32,452 nucleotides of DNA from Methylococcaceae bacterium (GTDB lineage: Bacteria > Pseudomonadota > Gammaproteobacteria > Methylococcales > Methylomonadaceae), in the NCBI GenBank assembly GCA_030627265.1, contig DAOUSK010000013.1, forward strand, positions 1 through 32,452, in the 5' to 3' direction. Positions 13,152-25,260 of this stretch are shown here, piece after piece; positions within the stretch are counted from its first letter, which is position 1, and every line of letters starts with the position of its first letter. Under the pieces are notes generated by a model. It ran no database searches, had not been told where the DNA came from, and worked only from the letters and a program-made list of their open reading frames with translations. Position numbers and translations under genes: made by a program.

Positions 13152-13394
13152 ATGCACACTCATTTAAGAAAAGTAGGTAACTCTCAAGGAATTATTATTC
13201 CAGCTAGTTTTATACAGGCGTGTTCGTTAAAAAAAGATATTGAGTTAAGAATTGAAGGTAACACTTTAGTTATTGAGGCTTTAAAAAAACCAAGATCAGG
13301 TTGGTTTGATAATTATAAGGATGAAGAGCTATTAAAGGATGACGTATGGAATGATACTTTACCCGATGATATTACCGAGGAATGGCAATGGTAA
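13152..13394 (+). CDS. mazE: MazE-like antitoxin (AbrB/SpoVT fold)
   Basis: An 80-residue protein with an N-terminal swapped-hairpin DNA-binding domain: HLRKVGNSQGIIIPASFIQACSL fits the MazE consensus, followed by the second half ELRIEGNTLVIEAL. The acidic C-terminal tail (about residues 50-80, with GWFDNY, DDVWNDTLPDD and ITEEWQW) is the part that in MazE wraps the toxin and blocks RNA cleavage. It overlaps the toxin gene by 13 bp, the usual antitoxin-first order, and probably represses its own operon. It sits in a short accessory segment after mnmE. Confidence 0.9.
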   Translation: MHTHLRKVGNSQGIIIPASFIQACSLKKDIELRIEGNTLVIEALKKPRSGWFDNYKDEELLKDDVWNDTLPDDITEEWQW

Positions 13395-13696
13395 AGTGTG
13401 GAGAGGTTTATTGGGTTAATCTTGACCCTACTTTTGGTACCGAGATTAAGAAAACACGCCCTGCATTAATTGTATCACCTGATGATTTAAATGATGCTTT
13501 GCCAAGGGTTATCATTGCACCTTTAACAAGCAAAGGTCAGTCTTTAGGCTGTCGGCCTGAAATAGTTTTTAATAATCGTCCCTCTCGATTATTGTTAGAT
13601 CAAATTCGTTCAGTCGATAAAAGGCGTTTACTAGAGAAAATGGGAGAAATAGATAAAAAGTTTTGGCATTCCATTTTGCTGGAAATGCTGGACTAA
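13382..13696 (+). CDS. mazF: MazF/PemK-family endoribonuclease toxin
   Basis: At 104 residues this matches the CcdB/PemK fold family in length. Visible are GEVYWVNLDPTFGTEIKKTRPALIVSPDDLND (the conserved start, with GTEI and TRPALIV), VIIAPLTSK, and LLLDQIRSVDKRRL, which carries the conserved DQIR region. Family members cut single-stranded mRNA at short sequences and slow growth when the antitoxin is degraded. Two ATGs, at 13382 and 13388, are both possible; the second gives MVKCGEVYW. The ORF looks intact, so the module is probably functional. Cut specificity cannot be read from the sequence. Confidence 0.92.
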   Translation: MAMVKCGEVYWVNLDPTFGTEIKKTRPALIVSPDDLNDALPRVIIAPLTSKGQSLGCRPEIVFNNRPSRLLLDQIRSVDKRRLLEKMGEIDKKFWHSILLEMLD

Positions 13697-20505: not shown

Positions 20506-20841
20506 ATGAGCAACACGGTATATACAGGAAAATTACGCCAGTGGAATAAAGATAAAGCTTTTGGTCTTATCGGACAAACTAAAGGCAAACGTGATATTTT
20601 TATTCATGGGTCAGAGCTAAAAGGGTTAAGCCGTAAACCAAAAATTGGGGATACAATTTCCTATCAAATAATTACCTCCAAAGGAGGCAACACTCAGGCG
20701 ATCAATGGCCATATTAAAGGCATTAGTGAACCTCTCTCTAGCAGACATACTCAAAGAAAAAGCTGGCAAAAACTAGGTAGCTTAATCGCTATCTTTTTAA
20801 GCATTGTCGCTATTGTTAATCTTGTTAAGTACTTTATGTAA
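20506..20841 (+). CDS. Cold-shock-domain protein with C-terminal membrane anchor
   Basis: A 111-residue protein. Residues about 5-70 form a cold-shock-like OB fold: GKLRQWNKDKAFGLI (RNP1 position, normally KGFGFI), RDIFIHGSEL (RNP2) and PKIGDTISYQIITSKGGNTQAINGHI. A Ser/Arg/Lys linker leads to one hydrophobic helix (LGSLIAIFLSIVAIVNLVKYFM) at the very C-terminus. This recalls the CSD-plus-DUF1294 membrane proteins, but here only one helix remains and no DUF1294 is visible. A nucleic-acid-binding protein held at the inner membrane is the simplest reading. AGGA precedes the ATG. It appears to be monocistronic, separated by about 300 bp on each side. Confidence 0.75.
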   Translation: MSNTVYTGKLRQWNKDKAFGLIGQTKGKRDIFIHGSELKGLSRKPKIGDTISYQIITSKGGNTQAINGHIKGISEPLSSRHTQRKSWQKLGSLIAIFLSIVAIVNLVKYFM

Positions 20842-21151
20842 GGTGATGCAGTTCGAGGTGTAATTCTAGTTAACACAGGTATAAGGCATTATAAATTGCG
20901 TAGAAATTAACATAGCGAATGTTACTCTAGAAAGCATTAATATAAGGTTAAAAAAGGGATGTACACTTAAAGTATTTCCGTGATTAGCGTCACAATTTCA
21001 AGTATTTGGCTTTAATTTTTTTTTTAAAAATAGGATAATCGTCACAAATGCTACAGAATTGTGACAGTTTCATTTTGTAACCCCCTTATAAAATCTGAAT
21101 TAACTGAGAAGAGAGATTGATTTCATTATTGAAATATCAATTAATTAGAAT
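20842..21151. other. Intergenic region upstream of the AP2-like gene (310 bp)
   Basis: No gene is seen. The segment contains three copies of GTCACAA: 20989-20995 and 21041-21047 direct, and TTGTGAC inverted at 21059-21065. The last two make a dyad with an 11-bp spacer. A -10-like TATAAA lies at 21087-21092 just downstream, without a clear -35 at normal spacing. A run of nine or more T (from 21016) precedes the dyad. Confidence 0.5.
21041..21092 (+). promoter_or_regulatory. Candidate operator/promoter of the AP2-like gene
   Basis: The GTCACAA-11-TTGTGAC dyad sits about 22 bp upstream of a TATAAA -10-like hexamer and about 90 bp before the ATG. The absence of a good -35 suggests an activator-dependent promoter. 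This is inferred from position and symmetry only. Confidence 0.3.
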
Positions 21152-21658
21152 ATGGTAAAACACAAACACATTACACAGCCTGATGTCTTTGGCTATCAAG
21201 TACGTATTGTTCGCCGCGGAAAAGAAAGCAGTCGCTATTTTTCTCATAAATTATGGGGAAGCAAGAATAAGTCTGTTACCGCTGCTATTGCTTGGCGTGA
21301 CCAAATGCTGGTTGCTTTAAAAGGCAGTAGAATTCGCTTCTTAAAACCCCCTAAGAATAAAACATCCACTGGGTTAACGGGCGTTTCTAGAACCATTAAG
21401 TACGATAGAAGAAAAGATAAAAGTTACCTTTGTTATACCGTTTTTTGGGTTTTAAATGGCAAATCTAAAAACAAAACCTTTCAAGTTGGTAATGTGCAAA
21501 CCACTACGGCTGATGACGAACTGCATGCCTTTCGTACTGCGCGTATTTTTAGATGTTGCTATGAGTATTCTATTGATAATGATAAACATTTTGCAGATGA
21601 TGAGTTTGCTGGTTGGAAAAAGAAACGTCTTTACGATACCTTGACACCAGAACTTTAA
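21152..21658 (+). CDS. Basic protein with two AP2/integrase-arm-like repeats, function unknown
   Basis: A 168-residue, strongly basic protein not assigned to a known gene. It appears to contain two related units. The first is about residues 12-56 (GYQVRIVRRGKESSRYFSHK..AIAWRDQML) and the second about 76-140 (GVSRTIKYDRRKD..YTVFWVLNGKSKNKTFQVGN..HAFRTARIF). Each looks like three short strands followed by a helix with a conserved A..(W/F)R pattern. That is the plan of AP2/ERF and integrase arm-type DNA-binding domains, and GVSR resembles the AP2 start (GVYR). A DNA-binding role is therefore plausible but inferred. No recombinase catalytic domain is present. It stands alone between a 310-bp regulatory-looking gap and purC. 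Confidence 0.6.
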   Translation: MVKHKHITQPDVFGYQVRIVRRGKESSRYFSHKLWGSKNKSVTAAIAWRDQMLVALKGSRIRFLKPPKNKTSTGLTGVSRTIKYDRRKDKSYLCYTVFWVLNGKSKNKTFQVGNVQTTTADDELHAFRTARIFRCCYEYSIDNDKHFADDEFAGWKKKRLYDTLTPEL

Positions 21659-24721: not shown

Positions 24722-24961
24722 ATGCCTAAAAATACTAGCATGACCCTTGGTGATCACTTTGATGCCTTTATCGCTCATAAAATTAAAGAAGGTCGCTTTT
24801 CTTCAGCAAGTGAGGTGGTGCGAACGGCGCTTAGAATGTTTGAAGATAACGAGCAAAAAACAGAAGCTCTTCGATACCTTCTTAAAGAAGGTGAGCGTAG
24901 CGGTACTGCAGAGTACAGCTATGAAGGTCTCATGAATGAACTCGATGAAGAACTGGGTTAG
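24722..24961 (+). CDS. parD: Type II antitoxin of the ParD family
   Basis: A 79-residue protein with an N-terminal ribbon-helix-helix domain (NTSMTLGDHFDAFIAHKIKEGRFSSASEVVRTALRMFED), the exact ParD pattern with GRFSSASEVVR in the second helix. An acidic C-terminal tail (YEGLMNELDEELG) would wrap the ParE toxin. AAGGTGA lies just before the ATG. Its TAG overlaps the toxin's GTG by one base, so translation is coupled. It is expected to repress its own promoter. Confidence 0.93.
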   Translation: MPKNTSMTLGDHFDAFIAHKIKEGRFSSASEVVRTALRMFEDNEQKTEALRYLLKEGERSGTAEYSYEGLMNELDEELG

Positions 24962-25260
24962 TGAAGTCCTTTACGCTTACCAATAAGGCTAAGGCGGATT
25001 TAAAATCAATTGCTGTCTATACCCAGAGAAAGTGGGGGAAAAATCAACGTAAAATTTATTTACGACAAATTGATGATGCTTTTCATATGCTATCGGAGGC
25101 ACCCGAGTTAGGCAATAAATGCGATTTTATTAAACAAGGGTATAGAAAGTTCCCCATTTCTAGCCATATTCTTTTCTATCGCAGTATTAGTCCGTTACAA
25201 ATTGAGTTTGTTCGTATACTGCATAAACGCATGGATGCTAAAACACAGATTAAAACCTAA
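24961..25260 (+). CDS. parE: ParE-family toxin (RelE/ParE superfamily)
   Basis: A 99-residue basic protein with the ParE layout: FTLTNKAKADLKSIAVYTQRKWGKNQRKIYLRQIDDAF in the N-terminal helices, SEAPELGNKCDFIKQGYRKFPISSHILFYR in the sheet, and IEFVRILHKRMD at the C-terminal end. The family inhibits DNA gyrase, though some members differ, so the target is inferred. The GTG start overlaps the parD stop codon. The ORF is intact. It ends one base from the convergent tadA stop codon, leaving no room for a terminator. Confidence 0.92.
   Translation: MKSFTLTNKAKADLKSIAVYTQRKWGKNQRKIYLRQIDDAFHMLSEAPELGNKCDFIKQGYRKFPISSHILFYRSISPLQIEFVRILHKRMDAKTQIKT

Follow-up and report, generated by a model that had tools for sequence, protein, structure and literature searches.

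The window, that is the whole stretch of 32,452 nucleotides that was analysed, contains at 21152-21658 a forward-strand ORF of 168 aa with an ATG start, in agreement with the gene placed there by the first-pass annotation. We read its product as a divergent tandem-AP2 protein, judging from its sequence and predicted structure. The gene, its parts and the intergenic region in front of it comprise the following features.

20842..21151, forward strand: intergenic region of 310 bp with a probable promoter, from alignment with two sister symbionts.
20974..20994, no strand assigned: block TATTTCCGTGA-N6-TCACA containing the palindrome GTGA-N6-TCAC, upstream of the promoter; kept in the window and in both sisters (L001, L002).
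21033-21039, forward strand: -10-like element GGATAAT, shared with L001 and L002.
21041..21065, no strand assigned: inverted repeat GTCACAA-N11-TTGTGAC adjoining the -10-like element; present in the window alone, absent in L001 and L002.
21152..21658, forward strand: gene of the putative tandem-AP2 protein, from the ORF, its orthologues, the AF2 model and the Foldseek match to PfSIP2.
21152..21349, forward strand: AP2-like unit 1 (residues 1-66), from AF2, its hhalign match to unit 2 and Pfam AP2 hits in homologues L149, L147 and L007.
21359..21589, forward strand: AP2-like unit 2 (about residues 70-146), from AF2 and Pfam AP2; contains Cys94.
21590..21658, forward strand: C-terminal tail (F..xxF..WKxxRLYD), from conservation across homologues.

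The protein is strongly basic, as had been claimed (pI 10.0; 34 K+R versus 16 D+E), and the proposed lack of a catalytic domain also holds, no other Pfam, PHROG or NCBIfam domain being found along its 168 aa; searches of PHROGs and NCBIfam with the window protein returned no family. The internal duplication suspected from a Y-x-V..F..A..R pattern common to both halves is real. When residues 1-66 and 70-145 were aligned as profiles (hhalign), they matched with a probability of 84%, an E-value of 7.5e-6 and a score of 30.7, above every one of 60 column shuffles (best score 19.8) and the reversed control (7.1); by this alignment each chain contains the two homologous units expected of a tandem-AP2 protein. 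Y15, V17, F30, A45 and R49 of unit 1 are the counterparts of Y95, V97, F110, A130 and R134 of unit 2, and V17, F30, A45, R49, G77, F110, A130 and R134 are invariant in all 28 homologues. Mean conservation is 0.91-0.92 for the two units versus 0.74 for the C-terminal tail, which is missing in the shortest homologues.

Likeness to the plant AP2/ERF factors and PF00847 (Pfam AP2) extends to both fold and sequence pattern. A profile comparison with AP2 and arm-type domains, proposed in the first-pass annotation as a check, was positive for AP2 in homologues, whereas the window protein itself stays below the cut-off (16.2 versus 33.3 bits), its unit 2 matching over residues 86-113 with a likewise sub-cut-off E-value of 0.013. 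Weak matches to PF00847 (E <= 1) are obtained for 25 of 28 family members, and two distant homologues exceed 33.3 bits, L151 (40.8 bits) and L154 (33.5 bits). The Pfam AP2 match falls within unit 1 of L149 (residues 20-54, E 9.8e-5) and L007 (20-52, E 0.0022), and within unit 2 of L095 (78-109, E 2.7e-5) and L151 (123-165, the 40.8-bit match). The earlier proposal of two AP2-like units is thus borne out by Pfam AP2 hits to both units in different homologues and by the best fold match, PfSIP2. A PF00847 search in the genomes of 21 relatives gave no match at E <= 0.001, so that the family is missed by Pfam annotation, and a sequence search of the PDB with the window protein found nothing significant.

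The AF2 model (28 homologues; mean pLDDT 85, pTM 0.60) predicts a βββα arrangement for unit 2 (strands 78-85, 90-101 and 104-114; helix 120-142) and ββα for unit 1, in which a short strand is followed by two long ones (14-21 and 24-31) and a helix (38-56). The short first strand of unit 1 has just 2 residues, likewise when this unit is modelled alone. A three-stranded sheet on a helix, the arrangement sought in an AP2 domain, is therefore predicted in full for unit 2, whereas in unit 1, for which the same had been anticipated, the first strand is rudimentary. When the whole model was compared with the PDB using Foldseek, the sole match with E <= 0.001 was the tandem AP2 repeat of PfSIP2 on DNA (6sy0; E 2.6e-4, probability 1.00), a structural match to known AP2 domains with a low whole-chain TM-score of about 0.23-0.24, which indicates that the arrangement of the units differs or is uncertain. 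Like the window protein, PfSIP2 has two adjacent AP2 units; identity in the structural alignment is, however, 12-13%, and the PfSIP2 units are part of a large eukaryotic protein, whereas the window protein consists of little besides its two units.

Next after PfSIP2 for the whole model are apicomplexan mitoribosomal proteins, including those of Toxoplasma; such proteins are also the best matches of unit 1 alone, alongside PfSIP2 (weak E-values, TM-score 0.62-0.75), and we regard those matched by unit 1 as AP2-like themselves. AP2-type folds can have a ribosomal role, the Toxoplasma mitoribosome being an example, and the protein could by this analogy bind RNA or the ribosome, with which a very weak profile similarity to bL33 (E 0.087) would also agree. 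The bL33 match is not significant, however, the top full-length match is an AP2-DNA complex, and the promoter palindrome described below fits a DNA-binding role; we consider a ribosomal function quite improbable.

Scanning of GTDB contigs yielded 175 confirmed relatives, the best 80 of which all belong to Methylococcales methanotrophs or to bins without a closer name. Of the 127 genomes sampled from the window's family, 112 carry the gene, usually in single copy, with orthologues 74-93% identical; three genera (g27, g32 and g34) account for 12 of the 15 genomes that lack it. The nearest relative (93%) is that of the methanotrophic gill symbiont of Bathymodiolus brooksi. The gene has survived in a symbiont genome reduced to about 2.3 Mb, which suggests that it is important. 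A second family of the order (f6) has a homologue at 70-73% identity, others standing at about 50%. Matches in other orders are confined to 10 of the 370 genomes of the class that were searched, and in a phylum sample of 299 genomes the window's own genome was the only match. In G001, which belongs to the window's genus, the AP2 gene is spread over two frames (L103:4167-4654), through decay of the copy or through an error of assembly. In family f3 (L092, L094), the about 48% identical homologue overlaps a putative 5-formyltetrahydrofolate cyclo-ligase gene, a context that differs from the peroxiredoxin pair described below.

AP2 and arm-type domains are common in homing endonucleases and integrases, and the first-pass annotation had pointed to integrase-arm units. 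What stands of this is a weak structural resemblance of unit 1 to the integrase arm-type domains 3jtz and 3rmp (TM-score 0.44-0.45, probability 0.28-0.35, rmsd about 2.4-2.5 Å over 42-45 columns). Since distant homologues (32-42% identical, annotated as hypothetical or unannotated) are also carried by large plasmids, the only kind of plasmid homologue found, the gene might be what is left of a mobile element, or a part of one that was domesticated (an AP2-HNH homing endonuclease or an integrase arm), with no cellular function. However, no HNH nuclease or integrase domain accompanies the units, the window protein lacks the recombinase domain of tyrosine integrases, and no homologue matched among 50,697 phage records. 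The dN/dS ratio to the two nearest orthologues, about 0.04-0.05, indicates strong purifying selection, and the gene has been retained vertically across the family in a fixed context. This origin is therefore disfavoured, and extremely improbable in our estimation.

That fixed context consists of a 2-Cys peroxiredoxin gene (200-201 aa), which is divergent from the AP2 gene, usually at 230-360 bp, in 75 of the 78 loci with at least 900 bp of upstream sequence. On the downstream side the neighbouring genes form 27 clusters, the commonest of which accounts for 21 of the 78 loci, so conserved gene order in general does not account for the peroxiredoxin linkage. The window's genome is atypical in that the peroxiredoxin block has moved to contig C181, and ruvA and a cold-shock protein gene lie upstream of the AP2 gene instead. 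The C181 block (L112, G000) comprises the peroxiredoxin, a small membrane protein and an AsmA-like protein, with the breakpoint between the peroxiredoxin and the AP2 gene.

Divergent pairs of an autoregulator and its target are familiar from LysR-type regulators, among them OxyR with peroxiredoxins. The likeness lies in a regulator placed back-to-back with a metabolic or stress gene and a site in their common intergenic region; the AP2 protein differs in having neither a helix-turn-helix nor a sensor domain, and control of its partner is our inference. A dependence of the peroxiredoxin on the AP2 protein was considered and rejected. Nearly all sampled genomes of the family have the peroxiredoxin, whether the AP2 gene is there or not, and many genomes that lack the AP2 gene have it; in those of them that were sampled, its own promoter element ATTCTACAC.A is mostly kept and the palindrome is gone; persisting in this way, the peroxiredoxin has no need of the AP2 protein.

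The palindrome in question was found in orthologous promoters of the AP2 gene, where TTGCTT-like and GATAAT-like boxes, GATAAT being the common -10-like element of the orthologues, are directly followed by the 20-bp sequence TTGTAAKC-N4-GMTTACAA. Allowing 2 mismatches, it occurs in 42 of 79 non-redundant upstream regions versus 0.07 expected from shuffled regions, although the 79 come from related sequences and the 42 are not a count of independent events. A conserved candidate operator in the gene's own promoter, as an autoregulator should have, is thus present in these 42 regions, whereas about half of the orthologues, including those of the window's own genus, have no recognisable palindrome. 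With up to 4 mismatches 46 sites are obtained, 44 of them directly 3' of a -10-like TAAT or CAAT. The arms have a mean identity of 0.83, compared with 0.47 for the spacer and about 0.3 for the sequence downstream, and they retain 0.83 even in pairs with flanks 27% identical; the selection of sites favours arm identity, but leaves the count versus shuffles unaffected. The palindrome is in these respects a phylogenetic footprint. At positions 7 and 14, T-A and G-C pairs occur beside mixed combinations, which lends weak support to its symmetry.

Across whole genomes, sites with at most one mismatch were found in 34 of 61 genomes versus 3 with the reversed pattern, and exact copies lie almost solely at the AP2 gene's own promoter. 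The palindrome might be the site of another regulator, with the AP2 gene as its target and the AP2 protein acting elsewhere, for example at other loci. The link between protein and site is indirect, and the several orthologues without a recognisable site would suit such an arrangement. For the site of an unrelated regulator, however, near-exclusive occurrence at one promoter would be unusual, and the palindrome was absent from the peroxiredoxin loci sampled in genomes without the AP2 gene; we hold this alternative to be rather unlikely.

Unlikely, in our opinion, is also a nucleoid-associated protein of low specificity that coats or bends DNA and controls no small regulon, even though a pI of 10, strong conservation, mostly single-copy occurrence and the near-absence of other genomic palindromes are all compatible with one. 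A positioned palindrome in its own promoter and a fixed divergent partner argue instead for a specific regulator, and the gene is rare outside the family and absent from three related genera. Additional regulon members were sought and rejected, the few off-promoter matches adjoining unrelated genes. A palindrome 5' of a rhodanese gene in three genomes was likewise discarded, as these belong to one genus (g17) and are too close for independence. In G156 (L169, L170, L171), three extra near-exact palindromes, one preceded by a copy-like TTGCTT promoter, lie upstream of secreted-looking genes, possibly an expanded regulon.

We favour, with some confidence, a stand-alone two-AP2 regulator that binds the palindrome at its own -10, limits itself and probably modulates the peroxiredoxin. 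Specific DNA binding by the AP2 protein is very likely, autoregulation through the palindrome is probable, and control of the peroxiredoxin, taken by itself, is a tentative proposition. The protein would occupy the 20-bp palindrome abutting the -10 of its promoter; bound there it would obstruct RNA polymerase and thereby hold its own expression down. Placement across the -10/+1 region does suit repression. From the same intergenic region it would probably modulate the divergent peroxiredoxin. Where the peroxiredoxin lies on another contig, as in the window's genome, it could be reached only in trans, and the operator would have to have changed there.

PfSIP2 requires both of its AP2 domains and recognises a bipartite site with half-sites 4 bp apart (PMC2829057). 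The spacer of the methanotroph palindrome has the same length; its half-sites, in contrast, are inverted, for which reason the binding form may be one chain or a dimer. The palindrome as such suits a symmetric dimer, a point that weighs against the favoured reading of a two-unit protein.

All 82 sequences in the family alignment have Cys94, and 80 have Cys136. Cys94 also occurs in the second linked family, whereas all 15 homologues that lie outside the peroxiredoxin-linked clade lack it. Cys94 and the linkage each arise once on the tree and mark one clade (support 98/98); defining the same clade, they stand for a single event and cannot be counted as separate evidence. Strand parity (V97 buried) would place residue 94 on the DNA-facing side of unit 2. 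One may thus imagine a redox switch, in which Cys94 is oxidised by peroxide or by-products of methane oxidation, the palindrome is released and peroxiredoxin output follows the redox state, a speculation to which we give little weight.

The first-pass annotation had also noted a regulatory-looking region upstream of the gene. This is supported in part by the 310-bp intergenic region with its sister-conserved blocks, namely a TGACAGTTTC block common to the window and its two nearest sisters and the GTGA-N6-TCAC palindrome, which we take to be of CRP-like form, and by the inverted repeat absent in the sisters. A generic promoter scan of the window's intergenic region gave nothing above chance. 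The window and both sisters lack a recognisable TTGTAAKC-N4-GMTTACAA; in the window, GTCACAA-N11-TTGTGAC occupies the position at which the palindromic operator is found in other methanotrophs.

Knowledge of AP2 transcription factors comes chiefly from plants and apicomplexan parasites. In the literature, which was covered in part, we found no characterised stand-alone bacterial AP2 regulator, and nothing relevant on AP2 proteins of methanotrophs. What is new here is a family-wide, unannotated putative tandem-AP2 regulator with a candidate operator and a partner gene, missed by Pfam and NCBIfam cut-offs, in hosts that include symbionts of deep-sea mussels as well as strains amenable to genetics. 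Since a candidate operator and a probable peroxide-defence target are at hand, the function of the family and the non-eukaryotic use of AP2 units are both directly testable.

Several other genes of the window deserve mention. The upstream neighbour at 20506-20841 encodes a cold-shock domain (PF00313, E 3.7e-8) in fusion with a hydrophobic C-terminus that probably spans the membrane, and relatives of this fusion occur on plasmids of Methylobacter and others. A probable MazEF-like toxin-antitoxin pair was recognised by eye from the translations at 13152-13696. At 24722-25260 lies a probable ParDE pair, in which a 79-aa ORF overlaps a 99-aa toxin of the ParE family (PF05016, E 1.8e-19).
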